Shown in pieces: positions 3,145 through 39,890 of a stretch of DNA of 45,886 nt. The DNA lies in IMG/VR virus record IMGVR_UViG_3300010368_000021, positions 1 to 45,886 of that record; one strand, given 5' to 3'. The DNA comes from a virus. The notes beneath the pieces are model-generated. The model was not told the DNA's origin, did not search any database, and saw only the letters and a list, made by a program, of their open reading frames with translations. How positions within the stretch are numbered: the stretch's first letter is position 1; each line of letters starts with the position of its first letter. A program made the position numbers and the translations under genes.

Positions 3145-3274
3145 AAATAACGTAACTGGAGGTGCTCACGAAAAGACCAAAAGAAAAAGACCAGGAGTTC
3201 ACGCAAAATCAAAAACATCAAAGCTTAAAAATTCTAAGAATTATAAAAAGCTTTATAAAGGACAAGGATCATGA
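3137..3274 (+). CDS. Very basic 45-residue conserved phage protein, TTG start
   Basis: An open frame from TTG (3137-3139) to TGA (3272-3274). It reads MAKNNVTGGAHEKTKRKRPG and then HAKSKTSKLKNSKNYKKLYK, with about one third Lys/Arg. The start overlaps the preceding stop and the stop overlaps the next ATG (ATGA at 3271-3274), the packing seen throughout this window. A near-identical small Lys-rich protein (GGAHEKTKRKRPGVHAKSK pattern) is frequent in T4-like phages of aquatic bacteria. Its charge suggests DNA or RNA binding; I cannot name a function. Confidence 0.75.
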   Translation: MAKNNVTGGAHEKTKRKRPGVHAKSKTSKLKNSKNYKKLYKGQGS

Positions 3275-3615
3275 AATTAGTAAAAATAATACTAGAGTAC
3301 GGGGAATCTGACAATACTTTAGAAATGCTGCAGGCCGAACTAACAAAAAGGTACGGACAGTACAAACCTAACTTAACAATGAACCAGTATTCACAAGATC
3401 GTGAAAAAGGAGATAAATTATTTGGAAAAGGGTTTGGAAAACTAGAATTTATAGTACGGGAAGACCTTCCGAAAGAGCTATTCAATGAAATAACAAGATT
3501 CTTAGAAGATAAGCATTTTGCAATTACAAGTACAACTAGTACTTATGAAAATGAACCAGGAGAGAGGAGAATATACCCGTCAATTGGTTTTAATTTTAAT
3601 TTAAGAGACCTGTAG
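3271..3615 (+). CDS. Small phage protein with MKLxxIILE N-terminal tag
   Basis: 114 residues, unrecognised. It begins MKLVKIILEYGES: a nine-residue amphipathic tag ending in I-L-E, the consensus (I/L)xE of T4-type prohead proteases. The rest looks alpha/beta (KLEFIVREDLPKELFNEITRF, then YPSIGFNFNLRDL). The ATG overlaps the preceding TGA, and the TAG stop shares a base with the GTG start of the following kinase-like gene, so the two are probably translationally coupled. The shared N-terminal tag with the next gene suggests a common destination, possibly the phage head. Confidence 0.7.
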   Translation: MKLVKIILEYGESDNTLEMLQAELTKRYGQYKPNLTMNQYSQDREKGDKLFGKGFGKLEFIVREDLPKELFNEITRFLEDKHFAITSTTSTYENEPGERRIYPSIGFNFNLRDL

Positions 3616-4046
3616 TGAAACTATCGCAAATAATATTAGAAGGTCCGATAGAATATGATCCTGCTTTTAATAAACAGATAGATAAAATACAAGATAGAGG
3701 AGGAAAATACTTAGGCTCAGGGGATTACGGTTCTGTATATCTACTTGACGGTAAAGCGGTAAAGGTAACAACTGACGAAGTTGAATTAGATCATGCTGAG
3801 CTGCTTAAAGGAAAAAAAACAAATAATTTTGTCTTCATTTACGATGTTAGTAGGTTAGGGGATAAGTTAGGAGTAATTACAATGGACGTTATGGGGGAAT
3901 TTAAAGGAGAAATTCCTGAAGACTTTATAGATGCCTTAGAAGCGGAAGCAAAAAGATTAGGAATACCTTCTGATGAATTAGATATAAGGCCGGATAATTT
4001 TATGATCAACCCTAAATCTGGGAAATTAAAAATGACAGACGTATAA
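3615..4046 (+). CDS. Miniature protein-kinase-like protein with N-terminal tag
   Basis: 143 residues from a GTG start overlapping the previous TAG. After the tag MKLSQIILE|G it shows the protein kinase core in order: a glycine-rich loop LGSGDYGSVY (33-42), a beta-3 lysine K50 in AVKV, acidic helix-C candidates (E56-E62), a catalytic-loop-like LDIRPDNFM with D123 and N128, and D142 in TDV in place of DFG. The protein ends one residue later, so the activation loop and most of the C-lobe are absent; typical kinases are ~260 residues. All four invariant residues (K, D, N, D) are nevertheless present, so this is not a random remnant. It could be an active minimal kinase, a phosphotransferase of another kind, or a nucleotide-binding pseudokinase. 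A terminator follows immediately. Confidence 0.65.
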   Translation: MKLSQIILEGPIEYDPAFNKQIDKIQDRGGKYLGSGDYGSVYLLDGKAVKVTTDEVELDHAELLKGKKTNNFVFIYDVSRLGDKLGVITMDVMGEFKGEIPEDFIDALEAEAKRLGIPSDELDIRPDNFMINPKSGKLKMTDV

Positions 4047-4070
4047 GTTGCTTAATTGCAACTTTTTTCT
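4045..4070 (+). terminator. Intrinsic terminator after kinase-like gene
   Basis: A perfect 7-bp stem AAGTTGC (4045-4051) / GCAACTT (4058-4064), loop TTAATT, followed by TTTTCT. The stem starts inside the stop codon of the kinase-like gene and overlaps the -33 element of the next promoter. Confidence 0.8.
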
Positions 4071-4078
4071 TATATTAA
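4048..4078 (+). promoter_or_regulatory. TTG-N16-TTCTTATATT promoter before primase
   Basis: TTG at 4048-4050, 20 bases, then TATATT from 4071, with TTC just before it. The box ends 17 bases before the primase ATG at 4096. It resembles the Bacteroidetes TTG / TAnnTTTG arrangement and matches four other sites in this window in spacing. Confidence 0.65.
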
Positions 4079-4095
4079 GATAATAACTGTTAAGT

Positions 4096-5022
4096 ATGGA
4101 GTATACTTTTTTATTAGGATCTATAGAAAACGTATTGGGAAAGAGTCATAAAAGAGCTAGAGATAACTACGCTTTTAATTGTCCTTTCTGCAATCACCGA
4201 AAACCTAAGTTAGAAATTAATCTAGCAACTAATGAAGAAGGTAAAAACCACTGGGAGTGTTGGGTATGTAAATCCAGAGGAACTACTATATACTCGCTAC
4301 TAAAGCAATTAAAAATACCTAAAGGAGAAGCACAGGAGGTTCTCAAATACATAAAGAAAGGTAAAAAATACGAATATAGTAATGATGAAATCACAGAGCT
4401 TCCTAAAGAATACCAACCTCTACATTCAGCTACAACAAAATCTATCACTGCCAATAAGATAAGAAAGTACTTATATGAACGAGGACTTACCGACAATGAT
4501 TTTATTAAATACTCTATTGGATATACGACAGATGGAGACTATGGAGGTCGAATCATTATACCAAGTTATTCTGAGTCGGGTAGGCTCAATTATTTTATTG
4601 GAAGAACTTACGAAAGAGCGTATTTTAAATACAAAAACCCAGAAACTTCTAAAGACATAGTATTCTTCGAAAACATGATCAATTGGGATAAACCGATAAT
4701 ACTATGTGAAGGTGTATTTGATGCAATGGCAATACGGAGAAACGCTGTTCCCATACTAGGAAAAAGTCTTTCCCACTCTCTAATGAAAAGAATAATAACG
4801 TCAAAAGTAGATGACATTTATATAGCTCTGGATCAAGATGCACAAAAAGATGCATTAGAGATAGCAGAAAATTTATTAAATTCAGGAAAAAGGGTCTTTC
4901 TAATTGACTTAAAAGAAAAAGACCCAAGTGAAGTAGGGTTTAGAAATTTTACTAAACTTATTCAATCCGCAAAAGAATTAGACTTTACAGGTCTAATGGT
5001 GCACAAAATTAATGCCCTATGA
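4096..5022 (+). CDS. DNA primase (zinc finger plus TOPRIM)
   Basis: 308 residues, functionally equivalent to T4 gp61. The N-terminal zinc-binding domain has CPFC (C29, C32) and CWVC (C55, C58). A central region (RKYLYERGL...YSIGYT...GGRIIIPSY) is typical of DnaG-type RNA polymerase domains. The TOPRIM catalytic acids are E205 in LCEGVFDAM and D246/D248 in ALDQDA. It would synthesise RNA primers for lagging-strand replication together with the phage helicase, which is not in this window. The gene has its own host-like promoter after a terminator, separating it from the small genes upstream. It overlaps the nuclease gene by four bases (ATGA). Confidence 0.92.
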   Translation: MEYTFLLGSIENVLGKSHKRARDNYAFNCPFCNHRKPKLEINLATNEEGKNHWECWVCKSRGTTIYSLLKQLKIPKGEAQEVLKYIKKGKKYEYSNDEITELPKEYQPLHSATTKSITANKIRKYLYERGLTDNDFIKYSIGYTTDGDYGGRIIIPSYSESGRLNYFIGRTYERAYFKYKNPETSKDIVFFENMINWDKPIILCEGVFDAMAIRRNAVPILGKSLSHSLMKRIITSKVDDIYIALDQDAQKDALEIAENLLNSGKRVFLIDLKEKDPSEVGFRNFTKLIQSAKELDFTGLMVHKINAL

Positions 5023-5801
5023 TCAAACAAGGTACAGACATTTTAAAAGAACATGCCAAAGACCGGTTAACTTTTGATGGGAAATTACAACAAATCAACT
5101 TCTTAGATAACAGAGTTTACAAAAGAAGAGAAGATACTTACTATCCATCAGTTACGACGATACTACAGTATATGCCAAAAAATAGATTCTTTGAAACTTG
5201 GCTAAAAGATGTAGGACATAATTCTGATATTATTATGCAGAAAGCAGGTAAAGAAGGGACCCAGGTACACGAAGCTGCCGAAAGGTTAGTACTAGGAGAA
5301 GAAGTACACTGGATGGATGATTACGGCAAAGCTAAGTACAGCGAATTAGTCTGGAGCATGATCCTTAAATTTACAGAATTCTGGAAAGAAAATAAACCAG
5401 AATTAATATCAGCAGAAGACTTCGTATACTCTGATACCCATAAGTATGCAGGAACAGCGGATCTAGTTGTTAAAATGCACGGCGAAGTTTGGTTGCTGGA
5501 TATAAAAACATCCAACAGCTTACATAAATCCTATGATCTTCAATTATCCGCTTATGCAAGAGCACTAGAAGAGATGAAAGGAATTAAAATACAAAGGACA
5601 GGAATTATTTGGTTAAAAGCAAGTACTAGGGGACCTTCAAAACAAAAGGAAGTTATACAAGGGGCAGGATGGCAGATTAAAGTAATAGATGAAATTGAAG
5701 AAAATTTTGAATTATTTAAGCTAATACAGAAACTATACTTATTAGAAAACCCATCTGTTAAACCTAAATATAAGTCTTACCCTACTTCCATTAAACTTTA
5801 A
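5019..5801 (+). CDS. RecB/Cas4-family PD-(D/E)XK exonuclease
   Basis: 260 residues with the ordered motifs of RecB-like nucleases: an N-terminal histidine H84 in GTQVHEAAE, GTADLVV with D148, the catalytic D161-x-K163 in LLDIKTS, and the motif IV segment LQLSAYA (Q175, Y179). These residues coordinate the metal and cleave DNA. The protein has no Cas4 four-cysteine iron-sulphur cluster, so it is closer to the stand-alone RecB-like phage exonucleases. Its start codon overlaps the primase stop, pointing to a role in replication, recombination or DNA end processing. Confidence 0.85.
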   Translation: MIKQGTDILKEHAKDRLTFDGKLQQINFLDNRVYKRREDTYYPSVTTILQYMPKNRFFETWLKDVGHNSDIIMQKAGKEGTQVHEAAERLVLGEEVHWMDDYGKAKYSELVWSMILKFTEFWKENKPELISAEDFVYSDTHKYAGTADLVVKMHGEVWLLDIKTSNSLHKSYDLQLSAYARALEEMKGIKIQRTGIIWLKASTRGPSKQKEVIQGAGWQIKVIDEIEENFELFKLIQKLYLLENPSVKPKYKSYPTSIKL

Positions 5802-5804
5802 TAC

Positions 5805-5812: not shown

Positions 5813-5822
5813 AATAAAATAG

Positions 5823-5853: not shown

Positions 5854-5873
5854 GGTCAATAAAATAAATTAGT

Positions 5874-9440: not shown

Positions 9441-9974
9441 ATGGGAAAACTAAAAGATTTGTTATTAGAAAAATCAGAAACTATGCCTCCGTATAATATC
9501 TACTGTGATATGGACGGAGTATTAACTGACTTCGAAACAAGGTTTGAGCACTACACAGGATACAGCAATCCAAAAGAGTATGAAGATGAATTTGGATCCG
9601 CAGCTTTTTGGAATATCATAGACGGAGAAGTAGGTATCAAATTCTGGTCAGAAATGCCCTGGATGCCTCAAGGACAGAGACTGTGGAATTTTATAGAACC
9701 TTACAGCCCGCAAATTTTGACATCTCCTTCAAGACATAATAACTCAAGACTAGGAAAAAACCTATGGGTTAGACAAAATATACCTTCATCTCCAAAAGTG
9801 ATATTTGCTTACTCAAAAGATAAGCAGAGATATGCTAACGAGAATTCAATTCTAATAGATGATAAAAAATCAAATATTGAAGAATGGATATCGAAAGGCG
9901 GAATTGCTATAAGATGTAAAGACGGAAATGTAGATTATGTTATAGAAAAATTAAAAGAATTAAAGTATGAGTAA
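9441..9974 (+). CDS. HAD-family 5'(3')-deoxyribonucleotidase-like phosphatase
   Basis: 177 residues. Motif I is IYCDMDGVLTDF with nucleophile D23 and D25. Motif II is the ILTSPS segment, motif III a lysine in FAYSKDKQRYA, and motif IV the acidic pair D140-D141 in ILIDDKKSN. Length and the FWS(E)MPWMP segment fit the deoxyribonucleotidase group, which dephosphorylates (d)NMPs. It starts MGKLKDLLLE|KSE, a tag like those on other proteins here and ending in LLE. It sits between the four-domain fusion and a zinc protein, overlapping the latter by eight bases. Confidence 0.8.
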   Translation: MGKLKDLLLEKSETMPPYNIYCDMDGVLTDFETRFEHYTGYSNPKEYEDEFGSAAFWNIIDGEVGIKFWSEMPWMPQGQRLWNFIEPYSPQILTSPSRHNNSRLGKNLWVRQNIPSSPKVIFAYSKDKQRYANENSILIDDKKSNIEEWISKGGIAIRCKDGNVDYVIEKLKELKYE

Positions 9975-12742: not shown

Positions 12743-13360
12743 ATGAGAATAAACGAACTCAAAAGACTAATAGAACAAGCATACATCGAAGTTCTTTTAG
12801 AACAGGATAAAGAACCAGCACCAGAAGACCTTACAGGAGATGATACTGCAGGTCCGGAGACAGTTTTAGAAGATGCTACGGATACGATGTTAGAAAAATT
12901 TCCAACGCTAAAAGCAACTCTAGTTAAATTAATGACACAGGATTTCAAGGAGTTCGTTAAGTCTGTTGATTGGATATCACCACGACCAACTTCATTTAGA
13001 ATCAACCTCTCTAATGGGCAGGATTTTTCTCTTAAGTGGACAGGAAAGACTTTCGATGCACAAATCCAAGGAAAGAATTATGCATTAGGGAAGATTAGTG
13101 AATTTCAACAAGCTCTAGATAGATTAGGAGTTCTATATCAAGAAGCGCCCTTAACGGGAGCAGGGCTAGAGGGAGAGCCTGGAGCAGAAGGAGAGACAGG
13201 TTCCGGAGCCGGAGGAGGAGCAGGAGATTTTCCAGGAGGAGAAGATGCAGCATTTGCAGAGCCAGGAGCAGAAGCACCAGAGGGTGGAGAAGAAGCAGGA
13301 GGAGCTGATTTAGGAGGAGAAGAAATAGATTTTGAAGCAGGAGAAGAACCAGAAGCATAG
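12743..13360 (+). CDS. Small protein with acidic Gly/Glu/Ala-rich tail
   Basis: 205 residues. An N-terminal helix (MRINELKRLIEQAYIEVLLE) is followed by a folded region of about residues 45-135, containing SFRINLSNGQDFSLKWTG and LGKISEFQQALDRLG. The last ~65 residues are low-complexity Gly, Glu, Ala and Pro with many GGEE/GAE units, giving a strongly acidic disordered tail. T4-type scaffold and internal core proteins often have such tails, and the position between a possible head polyprotein and a tagged small protein fits. LLE occurs at 18-20 as a possible cleavage site. Function unknown. Confidence 0.65.
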   Translation: MRINELKRLIEQAYIEVLLEQDKEPAPEDLTGDDTAGPETVLEDATDTMLEKFPTLKATLVKLMTQDFKEFVKSVDWISPRPTSFRINLSNGQDFSLKWTGKTFDAQIQGKNYALGKISEFQQALDRLGVLYQEAPLTGAGLEGEPGAEGETGSGAGGGAGDFPGGEDAAFAEPGAEAPEGGEEAGGADLGGEEIDFEAGEEPEA

Positions 13361-13365: not shown

Positions 13366-13599
13366 ATGAAACTTATAGATATTTTAAACGAGGGAGAAGA
13401 ATTACCCTTTGGAAACAAGCCATCAGAGGCAAGAAAAGTACTAGAACTAGCAGCTAAAATAAACAGCGCAATAGTTAGTATTGACGACAGTATGAGTTAC
13501 GGAGACTTTGCAAAAGCAGTAGCAATAGTTCTAAGAGATGAGTACGGTAGGCATACTTATAAACTATTTACAGACGAGTTAAATACAAACTTAGAATAG
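13366..13599 (+). CDS. Small protein with MKLIDILNE tag
   Basis: 77 residues, unrecognised. The first nine residues MKLIDILNE followed by GEE match the tag seen on the kinase-like and other proteins, ending in the (I/L)xE rule. The remainder looks helical (SEARKVLELAAKINSAIVSI, then YGDFAKAVAIVLRDE) and acidic. It starts five bases after the acidic-tail gene and is the last gene before a host-like promoter. Confidence 0.65.
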   Translation: MKLIDILNEGEELPFGNKPSEARKVLELAAKINSAIVSIDDSMSYGDFAKAVAIVLRDEYGRHTYKLFTDELNTNLE

Positions 13600-13673: not shown

Positions 13674-14891
13674 TTGAAAACAGACGTAATCGATAAAATA
13701 GTACAGGAATGGGCTTACAGGTGCGAGAAAGGGTACCCGGATATAATGAACGCTGAAGACTCAAAAATACTTAAAGAGATTTATACCGAGTTTGGCGTAA
13801 AGTTAGAAGAAGAGGTTATTTCACAAGACCATGGAGATTATGAAAGAGTGGAAGGTGAGGATAACGTGTACGTTAGAGCGAAAGACGTAAACAGAGAAAC
13901 AGGTGAACCTAACCCTTCCGTAGAACTGTACAAAGTAGTTGGCTCCGGAAAAGGTAAGTCTAAGGCGGCTACAAAGTATGTTAATATAAATGCAGTAGAC
14001 AAGAAGGTTCTAGAAGAAGAAGAAGTTGAAAAAGTTCTATCAAGAGCAGGAGTAAGTGATGGAGAGATTAACTTGGTAAAGCAAAATGATAATTACAGGA
14101 GAGCATCCAATATTGAGGAGTTTATAAAAGATATAAAGGTATATATGGAAGCTTTTTATGAACTTTTACATGATTATAAAATTCCAAAAGGGGGAAAGGG
14201 AGAACTGTTACCGTTAGTTTCGATAAAAGGAGCACGTATCGGAGGAGCTAATGAGAAAGATATAACAGACAGTAACGGAAAAGTACTAGAAGTAAAAGAC
14301 TTTTCATCAGGAAACGAAATATCACTTGCAACTGGAGGCAGTACACTAGGCAGTATTTTCTTGAAAAACTACGAAACATTTAGGAACCAAGTAGCACCGT
14401 TTAACAAAGTACCTGAATTTAGGTTCATACTGCCGGGAGTAGAGAAGCTTACATCTATACCTGAAATGTACTTAGACGAACTTACCAGACTCCTTGATAA
14501 TTTCCCGTTAGATGATAAAAGTATAGGTAAAGAGTACGTAGAGGTGAAAATAGCAGGGAAGAAGTACCTAGTGAAGAAAGATCAAGAATATACACTAAAA
14601 GTTGACCAGCAAGGAATGATAATATCCTCAGAAACCTCACCAGAATTAGGAAAGAAGCAAGAGTTTGAACTAAGGAAGTTAATGGAACATCCATGGGTAG
14701 TAGGAGGATCAGCTGCACTAAAGAAAAATCTTAACGAAATAAAAAGTAAAGGGCTGCAAGGTATAGACTATCTTATGATATACGATAGAGGAAAAACGGT
14801 CATATTAGATATGCGGAAAGAAGAGGATAGAAGTAGGTTGACTGTAAAGAGGATTGCCAACGGAATACTTACATTAAAACTTAACTACTAA
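13674..14891 (+). CDS. PD-(D/E)XK nuclease-like phage protein
   Basis: 405 residues from a TTG start placed 23 bases after a promoter. The central region GARIGGANEKDITDSNG ... LEVKDF has D196 and E206-V-K208, the spacing of a restriction-endonuclease-type D...ExK active site, followed by a GNEISLATGGS segment. The N-terminal third is charged and helical; the C-terminal part includes a beta domain (YLVKKDQEYTLKVDQQGMI). Motif evidence alone supports a metal-dependent nuclease, with moderate certainty. It is the last gene before the terminase and is separated from it by a terminator. No small terminase is recognisable here, so a packaging-related role is possible but unproven. Confidence 0.5.
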   Translation: MKTDVIDKIVQEWAYRCEKGYPDIMNAEDSKILKEIYTEFGVKLEEEVISQDHGDYERVEGEDNVYVRAKDVNRETGEPNPSVELYKVVGSGKGKSKAATKYVNINAVDKKVLEEEEVEKVLSRAGVSDGEINLVKQNDNYRRASNIEEFIKDIKVYMEAFYELLHDYKIPKGGKGELLPLVSIKGARIGGANEKDITDSNGKVLEVKDFSSGNEISLATGGSTLGSIFLKNYETFRNQVAPFNKVPEFRFILPGVEKLTSIPEMYLDELTRLLDNFPLDDKSIGKEYVEVKIAGKKYLVKKDQEYTLKVDQQGMIISSETSPELGKKQEFELRKLMEHPWVVGGSAALKKNLNEIKSKGLQGIDYLMIYDRGKTVILDMRKEEDRSRLTVKRIANGILTLKLNY

Positions 14892-18608: not shown

Positions 18609-19463
18609 ATGCAAATCAAACACAGCAAGTATAAAAATACAGGTTTAATATTTGAACTGTTAGTTAAGCAAATAGCTGCTGACATCTTAAATAAAAAAGA
18701 TTCTCCTGCAGTTAAAATTTTGAGAAATTTTTACACAGGGAAGACTGCATTAGTAAGAGAGTTTAAATTATATGAATTTATTCTTAAAAGCAAATCAGTC
18801 TCACAATCTAGAGCAGAAGCAACTGTATCTACTATCATAGAAGTAGCACGAACTGTTAATAAAGACCTGCTCAAAGTTCAAAAGTATAAGTTAATTAAAG
18901 AAATTAAAGAAAATTATAATATCGAAGAATTCTTTTCTATTTCTGTAAAAGACTACAAACCTCTAGCAGCTCTATACTGCTTGCTAGAAGCTCATAAAGA
19001 AGACCATATAGTAGCTCCTTCATTCTTAATCGATAATAAAACAACTCTACTAGAACATCTCACAAAATCTCAACAAGATAAGGAAAATGTTAGAGAAACG
19101 TTAATAGAGGAATACTCAAAATACGACAAAGACCTACAGCTATTAATTTTTAAAATACTTTTAGAGAAGTTCAACTCAAAATATACTTCTCTTCTACCAG
19201 AGCAGAAAAATATACTACGGGAATTTATTACATCTGTAGATTCTTCTGCCAGGCTACGTAACATAGTGAACGAAGAGTTTGAAAAATTAAGACAATTAGT
19301 GCTTGCACACAAGGCAAAAGTCACTGACGATATATTAAATATTAAATTACAAGAGGTACTTAAAGGAATAGAACCAGTAGCTAAAACAAAAAAAGTAACT
19401 GATAACCACCTTGTAAGTATAATGCAATACTACGAATTAGTTGAAGAATTAAGAAGACTATGA
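18609..19463 (+). CDS. Conserved helical head-region protein
   Basis: 284 residues, almost entirely helical by composition, no recognised enzymatic motif. It begins MQIKHSKYKNTGLIFELLVK, a start seen in other T4-like phages at the same place. It lies where T4 has small prohead core genes 67 and 68, between portal and prohead protease, so an assembly or core role is likely by position. It overlaps the following tagged gene by four bases (ATGA). Function otherwise unknown. Confidence 0.7.
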   Translation: MQIKHSKYKNTGLIFELLVKQIAADILNKKDSPAVKILRNFYTGKTALVREFKLYEFILKSKSVSQSRAEATVSTIIEVARTVNKDLLKVQKYKLIKEIKENYNIEEFFSISVKDYKPLAALYCLLEAHKEDHIVAPSFLIDNKTTLLEHLTKSQQDKENVRETLIEEYSKYDKDLQLLIFKILLEKFNSKYTSLLPEQKNILREFITSVDSSARLRNIVNEEFEKLRQLVLAHKAKVTDDILNIKLQEVLKGIEPVAKTKKVTDNHLVSIMQYYELVEELRRL

Positions 19464-19723
19464 AGATAAGTCAATTAAGAGAAATAATTAAGGAGGTAAT
19501 GCAAGAGCTTTATGAAATAAGCGCAACCGGAACAGGAGCTAGCTTTACGCCCGGAACAGGAGCCCAATACGCAACACCTAACGCTTTCAGTAAAAATAAA
19601 GGAAAAAATGCTGCTACAAAATACGGAGAAAAATTAGGGTATAAAGTAGTAAAGCAAAAAAAAAGGCCATACAATACTAAAATGTTTGATTACTTAGATG
19701 AGAACACTACAAGAAAAATATAA
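19460..19723 (+). CDS. Small head-region protein, GTGASFTPGTGAQYATP type
   Basis: 87 residues. It starts MKISQLREIIKEVMQELYE, an amphipathic helix with IKE and LYE as possible protease sites. Next is the conserved low-complexity segment GTGASFTPGTGAQYATPNAF and a basic C-terminus (KVVKQKKRPYNTK). Proteins with this middle segment recur in T4-like phages of aquatic bacteria. The location among core genes suggests a small prohead core or internal protein comparable to T4 gp67/gp68 by position only. It overlaps its neighbours on both sides. Confidence 0.7.
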   Translation: MKISQLREIIKEVMQELYEISATGTGASFTPGTGAQYATPNAFSKNKGKNAATKYGEKLGYKVVKQKKRPYNTKMFDYLDENTTRKI

Positions 19724-20985: not shown

Positions 20986-21564
20986 ATGAACAACCTATTA
21001 GTAGAAATAACACCATTTAAATCAATACTCAGGGAGTCTAAAGAAAGGCCGGGGGTATACGAAGTAGAAGGAGTTTTACAAAGAGCAGGAGCTAAAAACC
21101 AAAACGGACGAGTATACGACAAGACCTTGCTTGAAAGAGAGTGTAAGAAGTATATGAATGAGTTCGTAAAAAATGGAAATGCTTTTGGAGAATTAGATCA
21201 TCCGGAATCAGCTGTAGTATCTTTAAAAAATGCTTCCCACGTAGTAAAAGACCTGTGGTGGGATGGTGATGAGCTAAAAGGAAGAATTGAACTACTCAAT
21301 ACACCTGTAGGAAATATTGTCAAAGAAATTATAAAAGCAGGACATACTATAGGAATCTCTTCTAGGGGTACAGGATCAGTACAACAAACAAACGAAGGAA
21401 CATTAGAGGTACAGCAAGACTTTGAATTAGTCTGCTGGGATTTCGTCTCCAATCCTTCCACACAGGGAGCTTTCATGAACCCAGTATCCTTAAACGAAGG
21501 AAAACTCCCTGAAAATAAGTACACAAAAATCAATTCAATAATCAACGAAATATTAAGAGCATAG
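20986..21564 (+). CDS. Prohead maturation protease (T4 gp21-type)
   Basis: 192 residues from the ATG at 20986; an earlier in-frame ATG at 20899 lies inside the previous gene and encodes a non-conserved segment, so it is not used. The serine protease signatures are H72 in FGELDHPES and S125/S126 in TIGISSRGTGS, in the order of herpes/T4-type prohead proteases. It cuts scaffold, capsid and internal proteins after (I/L)xE. The start of this protein itself contains LVE and ILRE, suitable for self-processing. It immediately precedes another internal protein and the scaffold gene. Confidence 0.93.
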   Translation: MNNLLVEITPFKSILRESKERPGVYEVEGVLQRAGAKNQNGRVYDKTLLERECKKYMNEFVKNGNAFGELDHPESAVVSLKNASHVVKDLWWDGDELKGRIELLNTPVGNIVKEIIKAGHTIGISSRGTGSVQQTNEGTLEVQQDFELVCWDFVSNPSTQGAFMNPVSLNEGKLPENKYTKINSIINEILRA

Positions 21565-21566: not shown

Positions 21567-22226
21567 ATGGAAAACAATTTTGACCTTAGAAAATTTTTAG
21601 TAGAAAATAAGTTGACTTCTACTTCAAGAACAATAAACGAACAAACTATTCCAAACGATATAGTTTGGACAGATGAAGACGAACAAACCGCTAGCCAGGG
21701 TACATTTAACCAAATGGACCAATCTTCAGATGATCTTGAAGGGTATGATGTTGAGCTATTAGGATATAGTCCAAGTACAGGAAAAGCATATAAGGGATAT
21801 GCTGGAGGTTCCTACGGAGAAACAGATTACGATGATATAGACGGAGTCGAAGAAATGAATCCACGTGAGACGGAGCACTATATTGCTGCTTTAAAAAAAC
21901 ATGAACCAGAACATTTCAACAAGATGACTCAAGGAGTTGATATATCAAAAAATAACTTATCGGAAGAAGACAAGGTAAGCTCTAGAGTAGATAAAGGAAG
22001 TATAAGCATAGCAAACATAGATACATCAGATTACCCAGACTTTTCTGATGCCTATATAGAGTATGCCGAATTTGAAGACGGTACCCCATTAACAGATGAA
22101 GAGATAGATCAGCTCAATGACGAGATGAGTGATGAAATACACCAATTAGCTTACGAATCATTATACGAAGGACTAACTAAGAGAGAAAGAGTAGTAAAAG
22201 AGGCAGTTCTCAAAGCTTTAAAGTAG
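21567..22226 (+). CDS. Acidic phage protein with DAYIEYAEF motif
   Basis: 219 residues, strongly acidic. It begins MENNFDLRKFLVENKLTSTS, a short helical leader with LVE|N. The C-terminal part has DYPDFSDAYIEYAEFEDGTP and a DEEIDQLNDE helix, a module repeatedly found in uncultured T4-like phages, with no known function. It follows the protease by two bases and ends before a strong terminator, so it is the last gene of this unit. An internal head protein processed by the adjacent protease is a reasonable inference. Confidence 0.68.
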   Translation: MENNFDLRKFLVENKLTSTSRTINEQTIPNDIVWTDEDEQTASQGTFNQMDQSSDDLEGYDVELLGYSPSTGKAYKGYAGGSYGETDYDDIDGVEEMNPRETEHYIAALKKHEPEHFNKMTQGVDISKNNLSEEDKVSSRVDKGSISIANIDTSDYPDFSDAYIEYAEFEDGTPLTDEEIDQLNDEMSDEIHQLAYESLYEGLTKRERVVKEAVLKALK

Positions 22227-22289
22227 AATAAAGCTATTAAGATAAAATCATAGTAATATTTCCTCGGACGCTACCGCAGGATTGATGTA

Positions 22290-22331
22290 CCTGTAAGCAT
22301 AACATAAGAACTGCTTACGGGTCTTTTTTTT
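22290..22331 (+). terminator. Intrinsic terminator before scaffold gene
   Basis: A 10-bp stem CCTGTAAGCA (22290-22299) / TGCTTACGGG (22312-22321) with one T-G pair and a 12-base loop, followed by TC and a run of T. Confidence 0.88.
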
Positions 22332-22370
22332 GCAGAAAACTAAGGACTTCTTGTTTTTATTTAAACAGCA

Positions 22371-22378
22371 TATTTATT
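22371..22378 (+). promoter_or_regulatory. TATTTATT, one-mismatch box before scaffold
   Basis: Seven of eight matches to the box, 40 bases after the terminator and 94 bases before the scaffold ATG, implying a long leader if used. Confidence 0.4.
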
Positions 22379-22429
22379 ATTACAAATATACGGTCAACTA
22401 TACCGCATTATAAAAAAAAACTTTCCTAT

Positions 22430-22472: not shown

Positions 22473-23540
22473 ATGGCAAACAAAGATTTATTTAAGCAAG
22501 CTATTGCTGAAGCCAAATCTGTTCGTGAAGCCGCTATTGCAAACGCTAAACAAGCTTTGGAAGAGACTTTAACTCCTCATCTAAAAGATATGTTAGCTGC
22601 TAAACTTCAAGAGATGGAAGATGCATCAGAAGAAGGAGTAGTTAAAACAGAAGCACAAGGCAATATCGATGCTGACGAAAAGAACTCATTCGATCAACTA
22701 GAGGAAGAATACACTTTCGAAGAAGAGGATGAAGAAGCTGAGAATGATTCAGAAGAATCTGAAGACGAAGCTGAGGAAGAAGCAGAAGAAATTGAGGTAA
22801 AAGACATGGAAGTCGAAGACCTTAAAAACTTAATCCGCGATATCATCGCTCAAGAAGTTGGAAATGACGAAGCTGGGGAAGAAATGCCCGGCGAAGAAAT
22901 GCCAGCAGACGACATGGTAGGAATGGATAGTGAAGAAGAGATCGATTTAGATGAAATTCTAAGAGAACTTGGAGAAATGTCTCATGAAGTAGATGAGTAT
23001 GGATCTACTAAAATGAGTGAACCATCTGATTCTGCAGCAGCAGGGTTAGATAACATTATTAGCGGGCTACGAGCATTAACTAAAAAAGGAGGTCCTATAG
23101 CTAAGCAAGCATTTGCTGCTTTGCAAAGTTTAGGAGCTGGTGCTGGTGCTGCAATGCGTAATGAAGAAGAAATCTATGAACTAAACGAAGCACTAAGAAC
23201 AATTAAAGCTCTTAGCAAACAACTTCAGGAAACTAATTTGCTAAATGCTAAATTACTTTACTTAAATAAAGTATTTAAAGCAAACAACTTAACAGAATCT
23301 CAAAAAGTAAATATTATAACTGCATTCGACAAAGCAGAGACTGTTAAAGAAGCAAAACTAGTCTACAAAACAATTTCAGAAAACGTGATAGCTAGAACAA
23401 CTAGTAAATCAAAAGTTAATGAAGCAAAATTAGGTATGGCATCAAAAGCTACTGGAATTACTGCTAGAAGACCAGAAATAATTACAGAAGCTAATGAAAC
23501 TGTACTAAGAATGCAAAAGTTAGCAGGAATTATAAAATAA
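22473..23540 (+). CDS. Prohead core scaffold protein (T4 gp22-type)
   Basis: 355 residues. A helical N-terminus (MANKDLFKQAIAEAKSVREA) is followed by a very acidic middle (about 60-175, runs of Glu/Asp) and a helical C-terminal half with NEALRTIKALSKQLQE and LLYLNKVFKANNLTESQK. This layout and position directly before the capsid gene fit gp22, which fills the prohead and is degraded by the protease. Several (I/L)xE or NE sites are present (LNEA, VNEA, ITEA). It lies in a unit with the capsid gene between two terminators. Confidence 0.9.
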   Translation: MANKDLFKQAIAEAKSVREAAIANAKQALEETLTPHLKDMLAAKLQEMEDASEEGVVKTEAQGNIDADEKNSFDQLEEEYTFEEEDEEAENDSEESEDEAEEEAEEIEVKDMEVEDLKNLIRDIIAQEVGNDEAGEEMPGEEMPADDMVGMDSEEEIDLDEILRELGEMSHEVDEYGSTKMSEPSDSAAAGLDNIISGLRALTKKGGPIAKQAFAALQSLGAGAGAAMRNEEEIYELNEALRTIKALSKQLQETNLLNAKLLYLNKVFKANNLTESQKVNIITAFDKAETVKEAKLVYKTISENVIARTTSKSKVNEAKLGMASKATGITARRPEIITEANETVLRMQKLAGIIK

Positions 23541-23567: not shown

Positions 23568-25145
23568 ATGGAATTAAATCAATTATTGGAAGGTGCAAAT
23601 AACTACAAGTCTCTACAAGCTGATTCAGCTAGACTTGCTGGGAAGTGGACTAAAACAGGCTTATTAGAGGGACTCTCTAATGAGAATGAAAGAAACAACA
23701 TGGCTATGATTCTTGAGAATCAAGCAAAACAGATTGTATCAGAACAATCAAGTACTAACGTAGGAGGAGGTAGTTTTTCCGCTGGTCAAGGTGAGCAGTG
23801 GGCAGGAGTAGCTCTACCACTAGTGCGTAAGGTATTCGCTCAAATTGCTGCTAAAGATTTCGTATCTGTACAGCCAATGAATCTACCTTCAGGACTAGTA
23901 TTCTATTTAGATTTTAAATATGGTACTGGAGGACGTACCAAAGATCTTAACAGTAATTTATACGGTAACGTATCTACTGCTAATGATAAGATGACTGTTG
24001 ATGAAGAAGTTTCTGGCGGCCTTTACGGTGCAGGAGCTTTCGGATACTCAATCAACTCAGGATCACTCGCAGTACAACAAGTAACAGCAGCTGCAACCTC
24101 AGCCTCTATCGCATACAACGATGATTTACTATTATCAGGATTCAAAACAGTAGCAGTAAATATGGCATCTGTCTCTTCTTTCGATCACGAAGCAGTTAGA
24201 GCTTTCCGTCTTTACTCATCATCTGTAGATGTAACTTCAAACCCAGAGCTTACTACAGTATCAGGAGATACAGTTACTTTCGTAGTAACAGGAAGTGCTT
24301 TGACAGTAGTTGCCTCTATAACAGGATCTGTATTATACCACAACCAGCCAACTGATAACACAAGAGGTGACTTCGAAGATAATCCAGGTGGTTCAATCGT
24401 GATACCAGAAATTAATGTACAGCTTGCTTCTGAATCAATTGTTGCTAAAACAAGAAAATTAAAAGCACAATGGACCCCAGAATTTGCTCAGGATCTTAAC
24501 GCTTATCATTCTATTGATGCAGAAGCTGAATTAACATCTATCTTATCTGAATATATCTCTATGGAGATTGACTTAGAGATCTTAGATATGTTAATACAAG
24601 ATGCTGTAACAACTGAAAGATGGTCAGCCCTTAATAATAAATTATGGAATGGGACTACATGGTCAACAGCTAGTTCAGATTTCTATAATACCCAAGGACA
24701 ATGGTTCCAAACTTTAGGAACTAAAATCCAAAAAGTATCTAACAAAATCCACCAAAAAACTTTACGTGGCGGAGCTAACTTCTTAGTATGTTCTCCAACT
24801 GTAGCTACAATCCTAGAATCAATTCCTGGATATGCTGCAAACACTGACGGTGACAAAATGGATTTTGCATTTGGTGTACAAAAAGTAGGTGCATTAAACG
24901 GACGTTACAAAGTATACAAAAACCCTTACATGACTGAAAACACAATCCTTATGGGTTACAGAGGTTCTCAATTCTTGGAAACAGGTGCTGTGTATGCTCC
25001 TTACGTGCCATTAATGATGACACCACTAGTATACGATCCAGATACTTTTACTCCCCGCAAAGGAATTATGACCAGATATGCGAAGAAAATGCTTAGACCA
25101 GAATTTTACGGTCGTATTTTCGTATCAGATCTAGAAACAGTATAG
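23568..25145 (+). CDS. Major capsid protein (T4 gp23-type)
   Basis: 525 residues, matching T4 gp23 (521). The N-terminal ~60 residues are a likely propeptide with LLE (6-8), LLE (32-34), ILE (48-50) and VSE (57-59) protease sites; T4 gp23 is cut after residue 65. Then follow typical gp23 segments: QWAGVALPLVRKVFAQIAAK, FYLDFKYG, FAQDLNAYHSIDAEAELT and the C-terminal KGIMTRYAKKMLRPEFYG. An upstream box is not seen in the 27-base gap, so it is probably transcribed with the scaffold. A UUCG-loop terminator follows. Confidence 0.95.
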   Translation: MELNQLLEGANNYKSLQADSARLAGKWTKTGLLEGLSNENERNNMAMILENQAKQIVSEQSSTNVGGGSFSAGQGEQWAGVALPLVRKVFAQIAAKDFVSVQPMNLPSGLVFYLDFKYGTGGRTKDLNSNLYGNVSTANDKMTVDEEVSGGLYGAGAFGYSINSGSLAVQQVTAAATSASIAYNDDLLLSGFKTVAVNMASVSSFDHEAVRAFRLYSSSVDVTSNPELTTVSGDTVTFVVTGSALTVVASITGSVLYHNQPTDNTRGDFEDNPGGSIVIPEINVQLASESIVAKTRKLKAQWTPEFAQDLNAYHSIDAEAELTSILSEYISMEIDLEILDMLIQDAVTTERWSALNNKLWNGTTWSTASSDFYNTQGQWFQTLGTKIQKVSNKIHQKTLRGGANFLVCSPTVATILESIPGYAANTDGDKMDFAFGVQKVGALNGRYKVYKNPYMTENTILMGYRGSQFLETGAVYAPYVPLMMTPLVYDPDTFTPRKGIMTRYAKKMLRPEFYGRIFVSDLETV

Positions 25146-25964: not shown

Positions 25965-27107
25965 ATGGCTAATATAACTATCTGGGACGGTACAGCAAAC
26001 TTTAGTGCCGGAATGACTCCATTTGGATTCTATGACAGTGATCCCGATTTTCAAATAGATGCTGTAAAAGCAGCAAAATTCTGTGGTACGAGATTAGGAT
26101 TTCCACTCATGGATGTAGAACTACAATCAGGCTCCCTCTTTGCCTGCTTTGAAGAAGCTGTCTCAACATACGGAAACGAACTATTTCAATACAAAATACG
26201 AGAAAATTACTTATCTCTTGAAGGATCTTCGACAGGAAGTTTAGTAAACAAGAAAATACTCAATCCAACTTTAGATAGGATTATAAACATAAGTAAAAAC
26301 TACGGAACAGAGACCGAAGTAGGGGGATATGTGAACAGAAATACAGGATCTATTGAACTTATTTTAAATCAACAAAATTATGACCTAGATGCATGGGCAA
26401 TAGATCAGGGGATAGAAGGAGGAATAGAAATTAGAAGAGTCTTCTACGAAGCACCACCAGCAATCCTAAGGTACTTTGATCCTTACGCAGGTACAGGAAC
26501 AGGACTACAGTCCCTAATGGATGCTTTTGATTTTGGATCATATAGCCCAGGAGTAAACTTTCTACTAATGCCAGCTTCTTTTGATATACTGAAAATACAG
26601 GCAATAGAATTTAACGACCAAATACGAAGGTCTGCATATTCCTTTGAGGTAGTTAATAACAAATTGAAGATATTCCCTGTACCGAAAGCAAATGGCAGTC
26701 TTAAGTTTGAATTTTATAAAATAACAGACAAAAAAGCAGCAAGTTTTTTAGAAGGCGGAGATCTAATTACAAATATAGGGGAAGTACCTTATGATAATCC
26801 AAGGTACGAGACTGTAAACAGTGTCGGAAGACAGTGGATATTCAGATACACGCTAGCTTTAGCTAAAGAGTTATTAGCATACATACGAGGAAAGTATACA
26901 ACAGTACCAGTTCCTGGATCTGAAGCTACATTAAATCAAGCAGACTTACTAGCGGATGCAAGAACTGAAAAAGAAGCACTACTTTTAAACTTAAGAGAGA
27001 TGTTAGACCAAACATCAAGAACATCTCAATTAGAGAGAAAAGCCAGCGAAAGTGACTATCTAACCAAGACATTAAATGGGGTACCAATGACGATATACAT
27101 AGGATAA
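25965..27107 (+). CDS. Neck protein (T4 gp13-type)
   Basis: 380 residues. Features of the gp13 neck family include the N-terminal GFYDSDPDFQIDAVKAAKFC, LFACFEEAVSTYGNELFQYK and the long C-terminal helical region RQWIFRYTLALAKELLAYIRG followed by DLLADARTEKEALLLNLRE. T4 gp13 (309 residues) sits under the portal and joins the head to the tail. The gene follows phoH and overlaps the next small gene by one base. Confidence 0.85.
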   Translation: MANITIWDGTANFSAGMTPFGFYDSDPDFQIDAVKAAKFCGTRLGFPLMDVELQSGSLFACFEEAVSTYGNELFQYKIRENYLSLEGSSTGSLVNKKILNPTLDRIINISKNYGTETEVGGYVNRNTGSIELILNQQNYDLDAWAIDQGIEGGIEIRRVFYEAPPAILRYFDPYAGTGTGLQSLMDAFDFGSYSPGVNFLLMPASFDILKIQAIEFNDQIRRSAYSFEVVNNKLKIFPVPKANGSLKFEFYKITDKKAASFLEGGDLITNIGEVPYDNPRYETVNSVGRQWIFRYTLALAKELLAYIRGKYTTVPVPGSEATLNQADLLADARTEKEALLLNLREMLDQTSRTSQLERKASESDYLTKTLNGVPMTIYIG

Positions 27108-27412
27108 TGAAACTTACAAATATAATATCAGAAATACAATTCTCAATTTACCAAGCAATGGTAAGAGTAGGACATTCAGAAGGGATAACAGTACAAGATG
27201 TAGGGGAAATGCTTAGAGCAATGCCAGGGGTGTTAACAATTAACCAGGTATCACATAATGGAGATAATAATACAGCAATAATAAAAGTAAAATTACTAAC
27301 AACCAAGACACCTAGTGAAGCGTTTGCATCATTTAAAGCTACTTCTATTCAAAGAATACCTGAAGTAAAGAAAATAGAAGTTGCAGAAAAGACAATAGAA
27401 AAGAAAAAATAA
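27107..27412 (+). CDS. Small ferredoxin-fold-like protein with MKLTNIISE tag
   Basis: 101 residues. After MKLTNIISE|I the sequence reads as a beta-alpha-beta unit: GVLTINQVSHNGDNNTAIIK, then SEAFASFKATSIQRIPEV and a final VKKIEVAEKTIEKK strand. Homologous-looking small proteins occur between neck genes in other T4-like phages. The tag ends in ISE, matching the prohead-protease rule, although its neighbours are neck proteins rather than core proteins. Function unknown. Confidence 0.68.
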   Translation: MKLTNIISEIQFSIYQAMVRVGHSEGITVQDVGEMLRAMPGVLTINQVSHNGDNNTAIIKVKLLTTKTPSEAFASFKATSIQRIPEVKKIEVAEKTIEKKK

Positions 27413-37027: not shown

Positions 37028-37034
37028 CACAGTC

Positions 37035-37085: not shown

Positions 37086-37115
37086 AAAGACATTAAATAA
37101 AAACCTTATCAAGAC

Positions 37116-38864
37116 ATGGCAGAATCAATTATCTCTCCAGGTGTATTCACAAGAGAAAATGACATTTCATTTATCCAACCAGCTCCAGTAGTAGCAGGTG
37201 CAGCAATTATTGGACCGACAGTTAAAGGACCGGTAGAAACTCCAACATTGGTTACTTCATATAACGATTATGTTAGAAAATTTGGAGTTACATTTACATC
37301 AGCCTCTACAAGTTATGAATTCATGACTTCGCTAGCAGTAAAAAACTACTTTCAACAAGGAGGAGGCTCAGTACTAGTTACTAGGATTGTATCAGGTGCT
37401 TATGACCCAGCTACCTCTACACACGTATCTGCATCAGCAAATGAAAGCTTACAACCTTTCGAGCTAGAAACTATAGGAGAAGGTACTCTTTATAATAACT
37501 CAACAGCACTGCTTGACCCAGGAGAACAAAACAGTGACAATTCACTAGTATCAGGCTCATCGGACAACGTAAGATGGGAGATATCAAATGTAAGTAATAC
37601 TCAAGGTACATTTTCTTTAAGTATTCGTCAGGGAGACGATAGCTTAAAAAGTAGGACAGTATTAGAGACTTTTAATAACGTATCATTAGACCCTAACTCA
37701 AGTAACTATATAGAAAAAGTAATTGGTAATCAATCTACAGCTCTAGTAACAGGAGCAGACGGAACGTATGTTAGAATATCAGGAGAATATATTAATAGAT
37801 CTAACTTCGTTAGAGTATCTGCAGTAAACTTACCAACAGTAAATTACCTAAGTACAGATGGAGTTACAGTAAACCTTGATACAGCAGGAACATCTTATTC
37901 AGCATCACTGCCAATAGTACAATCAGGTTCATTCTTCGATGCAGCCGGAGGTATCGCAAGCGGAGCTAATTTCTTTGGAAATATAAATAATACGAATACT
38001 CAAGGATTAGTAGTAGCTAACTATACAGATATAATTAACTTACTAGAAAATACAGAAGATTATATATTTAATATAATTTCTGCACCAGGCCTTATCTATG
38101 CTAATGCAACTCACATTACTCCAATAGATTCAATTATATCTCTTGCAGAAACTAGAGGGGACTGTATTGCAGTAGTAGACGTACAGAATTACGCAGCTAC
38201 CGTATCTAATGTAACTGCACAAGCAAGTGTACTAAATAGCTCATATGCAGCAACTTATTGGCCTTGGTTACAAGTTCAATCTGCTACAGGTAGAAACGAA
38301 TGGGTTCCAGCTTCAGTAATAATACCAGGAGTTTATGCATTTACAGACAATAGCTCAGCACCTTGGTTTGCACCAGCAGGACTTGTTAGAGGAGGAATTA
38401 CAGGAGTAATTCAAGCAGAAAGAAGACTAACCAGAACACAGAGGGATACTCTATATACTAACAAAGTTAATCCAATCGCTTCATTTCCAGGACAAGGAAT
38501 ATCAGTTTTCGGTCAAAAGACATTACAGACAAAAGCATCAGCTTTAGATAGAGTAAATGTAAGAAGATTGTTAATTGAATTGAAAAAGTTCATTGGAGAT
38601 CAAGCAAGAACTTTAATATTCGAGCAAAATACTCTCACAACTAGAAACAGATTCTTATCAACAGTAAATCCTTACTTAGAATCAGTAGTACAGAGACAGG
38701 GACTTTATGCATATAGAGTAGTAATGGATGATACAAACAACACAGCAGATGTTGTAGACAGAAACCAGCTAATAGGTCAAATATATATTCAACCAGCTAA
38801 AACTGCAGAATTTATAATACTTGACTTTACAATTGAACCTACAGGAGCAACCTTTGCAGGATAA
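37116..38864 (+). CDS. Tail sheath protein (T4 gp18-type)
   Basis: 582 residues. The contractile sheath signatures are the N-terminal SPGVFTRENDISFIQPAPV and AAIIGPTVKGPVETPTLVTS, and the conserved C-terminal core LDRVNVRRLLIELKKFIGDQ, FLSTVNPYLESVVQRQGLYA and VDRNQLIGQIYIQPAKTAEF. T4 gp18 is 659 residues. It polymerises around the tube and contracts on infection. It is paired with the tail tube gene 49 bases downstream, the standard order. Confidence 0.96.
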   Translation: MAESIISPGVFTRENDISFIQPAPVVAGAAIIGPTVKGPVETPTLVTSYNDYVRKFGVTFTSASTSYEFMTSLAVKNYFQQGGGSVLVTRIVSGAYDPATSTHVSASANESLQPFELETIGEGTLYNNSTALLDPGEQNSDNSLVSGSSDNVRWEISNVSNTQGTFSLSIRQGDDSLKSRTVLETFNNVSLDPNSSNYIEKVIGNQSTALVTGADGTYVRISGEYINRSNFVRVSAVNLPTVNYLSTDGVTVNLDTAGTSYSASLPIVQSGSFFDAAGGIASGANFFGNINNTNTQGLVVANYTDIINLLENTEDYIFNIISAPGLIYANATHITPIDSIISLAETRGDCIAVVDVQNYAATVSNVTAQASVLNSSYAATYWPWLQVQSATGRNEWVPASVIIPGVYAFTDNSSAPWFAPAGLVRGGITGVIQAERRLTRTQRDTLYTNKVNPIASFPGQGISVFGQKTLQTKASALDRVNVRRLLIELKKFIGDQARTLIFEQNTLTTRNRFLSTVNPYLESVVQRQGLYAYRVVMDDTNNTADVVDRNQLIGQIYIQPAKTAEFIILDFTIEPTGATFAG

Positions 38865-38877
38865 TTAAAAATTAAGA

Positions 38878-38885
38878 TATTTATA
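38878..38885 (+). promoter_or_regulatory. TATTTATA box before tail tube
   Basis: Exact match followed by A, 28 bases before the tube ATG. Confidence 0.58.
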
Positions 38886-38913
38886 ATAAAGTAACTAATA
38901 AAATAAGAAAGAT

Positions 38914-39399
38914 ATGGCCGTATTGGACCCTAATGAGATAATGTTTAGAGCCTTTGAACCGAAGGTACAGAACAGATTCATAATGTACATGGATAACATT
39001 CCATCATTCATGGTAAAAAAAGTAACAGCTCCAAGCTTTGATGATGGAGAGGTAATATTAGATCATATCAACTCTTACCGTAAGATTAGAGGAAAGAGAA
39101 AGTGGGGAGATATGGATATGACTTTGTACGATCCGATTACACCTTCTGGTGCTCAAGCAGTAATGGAATGGGCTCGTCTATCTTACGAATCAGTAACTGG
39201 TAGAGCAGGATACTCAGACTTTTATAAAAAAGACTTAACACTAAACGTATTAGGTCCAGTAGGAGATATCGTATCAGAATGGATTATTAAAGGAGCATTT
39301 ATTAAAACAATGTCTCAAGGATCTTTTGATTGGTCAGCACCAGACGCAGTTGAATTGACAATGACTGTTGCAATGGATTATGCCGTGCTTAACTATTAA
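38914..39399 (+). CDS. Tail tube protein (T4 gp19-type)
   Basis: 161 residues, essentially the length of T4 gp19 (163). Typical segments are KVQNRFIMYMDNIPSFMVKK, GKRKWGDMDMTLYDPITPSG and the C-terminal FDWSAPDAVELTMTVAMDYA. It forms the inner tube through which DNA passes. Spacing and order after the sheath support the call. The next gene is 71 bases downstream. Confidence 0.95.
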   Translation: MAVLDPNEIMFRAFEPKVQNRFIMYMDNIPSFMVKKVTAPSFDDGEVILDHINSYRKIRGKRKWGDMDMTLYDPITPSGAQAVMEWARLSYESVTGRAGYSDFYKKDLTLNVLGPVGDIVSEWIIKGAFIKTMSQGSFDWSAPDAVELTMTVAMDYAVLNY

Positions 39400-39438
39400 T
39401 GCAGCCTTGAAATTTTAAAACACATACTAAATTACTGC

Positions 39439-39446
39439 TGTTTATA
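39439..39446 (+). promoter_or_regulatory. TGTTTATA, one-mismatch box
   Basis: Seven of eight matches, 24 bases before the ATG at 39471. It lies in a small inverted repeat CTGT-N6-ACAG. Confidence 0.35.
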
Positions 39447-39470
39447 TACAGTACTTTAAAAAAAGATAAG

Positions 39471-39890
39471 ATGAAGTTAGTAACTATAATAAACGAGATC
39501 GAGGCAAGTAAATGTCCGACATCGACTCAAAATATAGGAGAAAACCTTCAAAATAGACAAAATGCTATAGATGAACACGAGTATGGTCCCTTAAATCCAA
39601 ACGAACCAAACGAAAAATTTTGGCAGGCTAAGGTAGATATGTGGAAGCTTGACTCTATAGAAGAAGCTAAAACATCCCTTTGCGGTAACTGTGCAGCATT
39701 TGATACTACAGCTAAAACATTAGACTGTATTGCTAAAGGAATCGGAGATGATGAAGGTACAGAAGATCCATTTGATGTAATTAAAGCAGGGGAACTAGGC
39801 TATTGTCGATTCCTAAAATTTAAGTGTGCTGCAGCTAGAACTTGTAATGCTTGGGTTGTAGGGGGTCCAATAACAGACAGAATAAACTAG
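39471..39890 (+). CDS. Cysteine-rich conserved phage protein with MKLVTIINE tag
   Basis: 139 residues. After the tag MKLVTIINE|I it has CPTSTQNIGENLQNRQNAID and YGPLNPNEPNEKFWQAKVDM. The cysteine-rich end contains SLCGNCAAFD, a further Cys before IAKGIGDDEG, LGYCRFLKFKCAAARTCNAW and GGPI. The Cys spacing suggests a metal or iron-sulphur site, comparable in general look to small high-potential iron-sulphur proteins, but this is unproven. Proteins with this exact layout are common in marine T4-like phages near tail genes. The tag ends in INE, as in T4-type protease sites. Confidence 0.75.
   Translation: MKLVTIINEIEASKCPTSTQNIGENLQNRQNAIDEHEYGPLNPNEPNEKFWQAKVDMWKLDSIEEAKTSLCGNCAAFDTTAKTLDCIAKGIGDDEGTEDPFDVIKAGELGYCRFLKFKCAAARTCNAWVVGGPITDRIN

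Follow-up and report, generated by a model that had tools for sequence, protein, structure and literature searches.

Interchangeable N-terminal tags on unrelated proteins of a T4-related phage resemble capsid-targeting sequences

The DNA analysed here, the 45,886 nucleotides of IMG/VR virus record IMGVR_UViG_3300010368_000021 (called the window throughout), raises the question of why otherwise unlike proteins should begin with nearly the same nine or ten residues, of the type MKLxxIIxE. This 45.9-kb window is a piece of a T4-related tailed phage. It carries genes for terminase, portal, a gp23-type capsid protein, and tail sheath and tube, as well as PhoH, and among named phages the closest relative found, with a portal 72% identical, is Flavobacterium phage vB_FspM_immuto (immuto). 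The shared N-termini are quite probably T4-type capsid-targeting sequences, which have been greatly expanded and diversified in this clade.

An anchored pattern, ^M.{0,2}[KRQN][LIVMFY]..[ILVMFY][ILVM].E, matches seven window proteins, those at 3271, 3615, 9441, 13366, 27107, 39471, and 40270. An earlier note on this DNA had listed nine N-termini of this kind, and all nine are present in open reading frames (ORFs) of the + strand at the coordinates given below. Among the three that it had regarded as looser versions, 19460 (L..II.E) and 40270 (L..LV.E) fit a core phi-x-x-phi-phi-x-E that is common to all tag types; 12743 has Q where E is expected. Two tags lay outside that list: 21567, which belongs to a second class (MENNFDLRKFLVENKLTSTSRTINE), and 13674 (V..IV.E, with a TTG start). 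The tags of the window are as follows, read from the letters where no other basis is named.

3271..3297, + strand: tag MKLVKIILE on a 114-residue protein (3271-3615); anchored pattern
3615..3641, + strand: tag (GTG)KLSQIILE, the ORF having a GTG start codon, on a small kinase-fold protein (3615-4046); AlphaFold model and PDB matches
9441..9470, + strand: tag MGKLKDLLLE on a 5'-nucleotidase-like HAD protein (9441-9974); phrog_2643
12743..12778, + strand: near-miss tag MRINELKRLIEQ, Q replacing E, on an acidic protein (12743-13360)
13366..13392, + strand: tag MKLIDILNE on a 77-residue protein (13366-13599)
13674..13709, + strand: V..IV.E N-terminus, TTG start, on a 405-residue protein (13674-14891)
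19460..19495, + strand: class C tag MKISQLREIIKE on a conserved small head-region protein (19460-19723); 90 distinct relatives
21567..21641, + strand: class B tag MENNFDLRKFLVENKLTSTSRTINE on a protein in the slot between protease and scaffold (21567-22226); sequence and gene position
27107..27133, + strand: tag MKLTNIISE on a ferredoxin-like-fold protein (27107-27412); alignment and AlphaFold model
39471..39497, + strand: tag MKLVTIINE on a Cys-rich protein (39471-39890)
40270..40299, + strand: tag MAKLRDLVKE on a protein of weak likeness to DUF5872 and phrog_727 (40270-40740); anchored pattern

The core reads L..II.E in class A, LRQIIKE in class C, LKKFLVE in class B, and LAGIITE in class D. 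Its frequency at N-termini was compared with the rate at which each pattern occurs inside proteins, using 1,337 proteins of at least 60 residues from eight clade contigs, namely those of the window and immuto and six IMG/VR contigs out of seven that were fetched from among 16 relatives (contig G005 was excluded, being 99.998% identical to part of G006). In this search across related genomes, which the earlier note had proposed as a check, the strict pattern [KR][LI]..[IL][IL].E stands at residue 2 of 20 proteins, as against 0.05 expected, and the looser [KRQN][LIVMF]..[ILVMF][ILVM].E at residue 2 of 21 proteins, as against 0.39. When residues 2-4 are allowed, 32 proteins have the pattern, while 1,000 shuffles gave a mean of 1.5 and a maximum of 6. 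(The hits are partly non-independent, because the eight contigs have orthologues in common.) The core starts at residue 3, 4, or 6 in 22, 25, and 29 proteins, respectively, with about 2.1 expected at each position, and every clade contig has 7-15 core-matching N-termini. Across 78 distinct tags, L, I, or F is found at -6 and mostly I or L at -3 and -2; the search pattern itself prescribes these residues in part, and the internal-position control serves as the independent test.

The tags accompany a protease. As the earlier note had stated, a gp21-type enzyme is encoded in the window:

20986..21564, + strand: gp21-type S77 prohead protease; PF03420 at E 4e-35, phrog_207, PDB 5jbl

The protein passes the Pfam cut-off for Peptidase S77 (121.5 bits vs 27), matches PDB 5jbl, a prohead core protease, at E 1.5e-24, and has the N-terminus MNNLLVE and the C-terminal stretch INSIINEILRA. 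An S77 protease is found in 16 of 16 relatives (the protease itself had served to retrieve 10 of these, and the portal the other 6), in 11 of 14 class B IMG/VR contigs, including all three that exceed 150 kb, and in 9 of 20 class D IMG/VR contigs; these class B and class D contigs were chosen for length. Tagged genes cluster near the head genes: within 25 kb of the protease 53 of 285 genes are tagged, compared with 20 of 943 elsewhere (six contigs, three of them treated as circular by assumption; Fisher p 2e-20), where tagged means having the core at residues 3-8 or a class B or D tag. Nor are tags equally common in phages that lack such a protease. Pfam S77 divides twelve named phages into six that have it (T4, KVP40, P-SSM4, HTVC008M, RM378, and Mel-JY01) and six that do not (a crAss-like locus search had yielded one locus). 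In the small S77-lacking panel of six genomes, the core lies at residues 3-8 of 4 proteins, with 4.9 expected, and the anchored pattern is present in 0 of the 526 proteins; in the eight clade contigs, the core lies at residues 3-8 of 92 proteins, with 12.4 expected. A tblastn search of 50,697 phage records, made with a single peptide each of classes D and B, matched only the four immuto records.

The tags are modular, with interchangeable classes present on many unrelated bodies. Besides class A, there are class C (MKKSQLRQIIKE), class B (FDLKKFLVENKLT, also written FDLKKFLVENKL), and class D (RMQKLAGIITE). The class A tag is found on 99 unique proteins, whose bodies fall into 24 clusters, 14 of these being single proteins. 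The class D DNA pattern (MQxLAGIITE) occurs in at least 120 stretches; among the matches listed, which cover 80 loci, 88 of 92 ORF matches lie within 30 residues of the first ATG, and the 80 unique proteins form 47 body clusters. For class B, again over the 80 loci among the matches listed, 89 of 97 matches are N-terminal, on 79 proteins in 36 body clusters. (The class B and D counts are not prevalences, because their loci were retrieved by tag pattern.) Among the eight internal class B copies listed, six are inside proteins that also start with a class B tag. Proteins with a class B start and a second, internal class B tag were seen in L448, L450, L455, L470, L501, and L145, and several of the internal tags are preceded by an LQE, LKE, or MKE site; such double-tagged proteins look as if two cargo proteins had been fused, which the protease could separate.

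Tags are also exchanged between similar bodies. When loci are pooled (leaving aside L218-L312, which hold most panel genomes, and loci under 800 bases), 648 tagged proteins form 198 body clusters, and 14 of the 198 contain more than one tag class, one mixed cluster of 149 being possibly chained. Class B or D is involved in 10 of the 14; the other four are A/C exchanges, which count little because the class A and C patterns overlap. Like bodies with different tags include pairs that are 89.9% identical (A vs B; L102, L060), 80.5% identical (B vs D; L545, L398), 70.6% identical (C vs D; L425, L371), and 66.3% identical (B vs C; L437 and immuto, L161).

The same exchange is visible at a single gene position, the slot between the protease and scaffold genes. 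The two flanking genes were both found, on one strand, in 114 of 174 loci, which gives 71 unique slot genes, and 60 of these are tagged: 32 with class B, 26 with class A or C, and 2 with class D. (The slot count used a looser class B pattern, and the pooled count a looser class D pattern, than the per-class counts.) The slot bodies form 27 clusters, 20 of which have a tagged member. Because 25 of the 26 A/C genes belong to one body family, which also has a B-tagged member, the variety of the slot arises mainly through class B. In Microcystis phage Mel-JY01 (PP395634), the protease and scaffold genes flank a gene at 22183-22410 that bears the annotation ribosomal protein S21; inspection of the N-terminus of its product found no tag.

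The bodies behind the tags differ, as the earlier note had held. The 9441 body is 5'-nucleotidase-like, matching phrog_2643 over residues 17-164 at E 2.3e-26 (with Pfam NT5C below its cut-off), while the 39471 Cys-rich protein has no family match in Pfam or PHROG, and the 3271 body has no relative among the proteins compared. The 13366 body is akin to that of a class C tagged protein (E 2e-8). The AlphaFold model of 3615, made from a four-row alignment, has a predicted local distance difference test (pLDDT) score below 50 only at residues 1-9; the rest adopts a kinase-like fold, with kinase matches in PDB (best E 5.5e-6). By our own reading of the motif, this protein ends in TDV directly after the presumed DFG aspartate, and so is without most of a C-lobe. 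In the 27107 model the first ten residues average 61, as against 86-91 for most of the ferredoxin-like body; Foldseek gave no PDB match below E 0.001, and in BFVD three matches below 0.001, all to uncharacterised proteins. A tagged superoxide dismutase (L208:17179-17823) has Pfam homology from residue 12, and the PDB enzymes listed match from residues 9-15, mostly 12-13. Since homology starts past the tag, and residues 1-9 of the kinase-fold protein have low pLDDT, the tag is an appendage to the enzyme. Further tagged bodies include a zeta-toxin-like enzyme, acetyltransferases, a nucleotidyltransferase domain, and an HD protein. Among ten class B/D proteins compared with Pfam, eight had no match, one had an HD domain above the cut-off (L498), and one had a match below it; PADLOC left eight of ten tagged proteins unmatched and gave weak matches for the other two (E 0.0027 to 0.0078). 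The window protein 40270-40740 shares with L118, G001:36176, L088, and L149 a segment of roughly 40 residues (RCLRIADRKYNKPSAYKSGAVVRCRKGNIW), which stands at varying positions in proteins that are otherwise different.

The reading offered by the earlier note, that these are capsid-targeting sequences, gains support from this modularity, from tag exchange and clustering near the protease, and from the low pLDDT of residues 1-9 in 3615, all of which fit a removable targeting peptide. By extension from T4, core docking, cleavage, packaging, and injection would proceed as follows. During head assembly, the amphipathic phi-x-x-phi-phi-x-E tag would dock its protein onto the growing prohead core; the gp21-type protease would then cut after the Glu, so that the tag is lost and the mature protein is freed inside the head. 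The cargo would stay in the head and leave with the DNA at infection. Within this clade the device would have become a general cargo system, in which three further N-terminal classes (C, B, and D) came to be exchanged among unrelated proteins.

An alternative is that the tags dock proteins to the prohead core and do not import them, the tagged proteins being assembly factors that escape cleavage and do not remain in the head. In keeping with this, tagged proteins with many relatives lie among the head and neck genes (27107 with 41, 19460 with 90), and these two may act in assembly instead of being injected; in addition, the residues after the Glu are varied. Docking without import is nevertheless unlikely, given that the 14 single-protein clusters of class A are accessory and that there are tagged enzymes without an evident role in assembly, such as the superoxide dismutase, the nucleotidase, and the zeta-toxin-like enzyme. 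Moreover, the putative site itself is kept. An (I/L)-x-E-type cleavage motif is present at the tag end of the 27107 family, where 37 of 37 aligned sequences (chosen from the window protein and its 41 relatives, L059 being left out) have [ILVM]xE within residues 1-10; in windows starting at residues 9 to 21 such triplets are found in 0 to 2 sequences, and two later regions of the alignment hold them in up to 22.

It is less likely still that the tag directs proteins to some other destination, such as the tail, a membrane, or another compartment of the infected cell. Amphipathic N-terminal helices can bind membranes, and a few core matches adjoin baseplate genes; but S77-lacking phages have no tag excess, the Glu is conserved, the matches in T4 include IPII, IPIII, and gp24, the tagged genes cluster near the protease, and class D resembles the tail of the scaffold.

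Highly improbable is an origin of the shared start in common descent of N-terminal domains, or in a 5' coding sequence preferred for translation. The 13674 family, whose members start with MSVVDKIVTEW or similar, does have partners that match it at the N-terminus and align poorly further on, and a few same-contig tag pairs are identical in DNA (L443, L341). However, the bodies that directly follow the tag belong to 24 (A), 47 (D), and 36 (B) clusters, homologous bodies carry different tags, and codons for the same residue differ in about 30% of cases within one contig. Same-contig tag pairs average 89% protein identity for class B (23 pairs) and 99% for class D (10 pairs), while the shared residues have the same codon in 73% (B) and 70% (D) of cases within contigs and in 67% and 56% between contigs. 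The DNA flanking the pairs is on average 37% (B) and 56% (D) identical upstream and 33% (B) and 30% (D) downstream. Near-identical peptides with differing codons and diverged flanks indicate that selection acts on the peptide. Finally, that amphipathic Met-Lys starts are merely common, as a loose core found inside proteins at 1.6 per 1,000 positions might hint, is scarcely conceivable beside 20 vs 0.05, 32 vs 1.5, and the lack of excess in control phages, and both chance and coding bias were rejected on N-terminal enrichment, control phages, and codon differences within contigs.

Several observations count against the tags being capsid-targeting sequences. The residue after the Glu is varied rather than E-A or E-S as at the T4 sites examined, the commonest being Ile (19 of 78 tag/body combinations, 15 of them from one family). 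The full core is kept in 29 of the 41 relatives of 27107 and shifted in 11 (IIEQ, LQE, LGE), and L059, whose called start is 17 residues downstream, shows no tag; the nucleotidase relatives likewise have a shifted core (LLEA). Among the slot genes, 11 of 71 are without a recognised tag. Some core matches, such as immuto 81525 beside the baseplate genes, are probably not cargo, and the same search in T4 misses IPI and has other proteins as three of its seven hits. No S77 protease was seen in 11 of the 20 class D and 3 of the 14 class B contigs, an absence that means little because none of these contigs is known to be complete. Lastly, enrichment is only weak in the six other S77 phages (26 vs 13.7, core at residues 3-8), so the protease alone is no predictor of tags; the panel counts together argue that the tag accompanies the protease, but that a large repertoire characterises this clade.

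If the tags are capsid-targeting sequences, the protein that follows the slot bears on what they bind:

22473..23540, + strand: scaffold-position protein, between the protease and the major capsid protein; relatives in 89 unique sequences
23508..23540, + strand: scaffold C-terminal tail RMQKLAGIIK, like class D RMQKLAGIITE; sequence likeness
23568..25145, + strand: major capsid protein, gp23 family; phrog_138 at E 7e-77

A PHROG search with the 22473 protein gave no match, and its gene position suggests that it is the scaffold. Of the 89 unique proteins at this position, 88 end in (M/F/W)(Q/K)x(L/I)AG(I/L/V), and the remaining one has LQKLAGIIK; the class D tag is the scaffold-tail stretch followed by a putatively cleavable TE. 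The class D tags may thus imitate the scaffold tail, which is the boldest part of the proposal and one suggested by likeness of sequence. The end of T4 gp22 was inspected and has no tail like a capsid-targeting sequence; scaffold mimicry is therefore no T4 feature. A wider conjecture, which we advance tentatively and with rather less than even confidence, is an open code for capsid import, in which interchangeable peptides could bring in any protein, class D would mimic the scaffold tail (LAGII) and occupy its site, and a single virion would bring in together anything from several enzymes to a dozen or more. Were this so, the cargo pool would already amount to 198 body clusters in the loci fetched, most of which have no assigned function and may plausibly act in counter-defence or host takeover. 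Apart from the head genes, the left end of the window (1-400) is repetitive DNA with TCAGGAACTTCAGGT-like units, probably the end of a repetitive gene severed by the contig end.

Should the tags work as in T4, the injected proteome of a large environmental phage group could be listed from sequence, which would yield a list of new candidates for anti-defence and host-takeover roles; three injected internal proteins of T4 have been shown to block restriction enzymes (PMC12373910, in the excerpt available). Tag exchange and the scaffold-tail likeness make the binding partner of capsid-targeting sequences directly testable, and import tags this small and portable would help to load enzymes into phage heads.

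A search of the literature, by titles and abstract openings, found no description of such tags in this phage group and no virion proteome of immuto, and the string LAGIITE was absent from the papers searched for it; those papers examined that use the term capsid targeting concern T4 and the giant phage SPN3US. Giant phages offer a partial parallel. According to excerpts of two sources (PMC5694885, PMC9026906), SPN3US and 201phi2-1 have N-terminal peptides that are thought to target proteins to the head and that a diverged prohead protease cleaves after Glu. Unlike the tags considered here, several of the giant-phage ejection-protein propeptides exceed 100 residues, and those excerpts describe no short module on many unrelated proteins. 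The propeptide of T4-type major capsid proteins is a further parallel: in the capsid protein of the window the N-terminal region is comparable, and a possible cleavage point follows QIVSE at residue 59 (IVSE codons 23733-23744), although such a propeptide is structural and not a cargo tag.

The closest known system is that of T4, whose internal proteins IPI, IPII, and IPIII and the Alt protein carry capsid-targeting sequences cut by gp21. In the excerpt available of PMC9026906, mutation of the T4 sequence MKTYQEFIAE mapped residues 4 and 7 as needed for targeting and residues 8 and 10 for cleavage, and the protease is described as cutting after L/I-X-E. MKTYQEFIAE reads Y..FI.E, and its spacing equals that of the core phi-x-x-phi-phi-x-E at these four mutationally mapped positions, so that the likeness to T4 that the earlier note had recognised extends to the residues that matter in that excerpt. 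The named hits in T4 are IPII, IPIII, the gp21 substrate gp24, and gp2. The last, the DNA end protector (NC_000866, 76061-76885), has the tag-like start MAIFQIINE-STPQ, and a 54-residue T4 ORF (18966-19130, - strand) has the tag-like start MKTFKEFIKE. As in T4, the tags are N-terminal, about ten residues long, with a Met-Lys start and the same residue spacing; they are common to non-homologous proteins, and they occur together with an S77 prohead protease and gp20/gp23-type head genes. Where T4 has a handful of tagged proteins, each clade contig has its 7-15 core-matching N-termini, which would be cleaved in the same way; the clade also has several distinct tag classes that swap, one of which resembles the tail of the scaffold, a likeness that T4 gp22 does not show.

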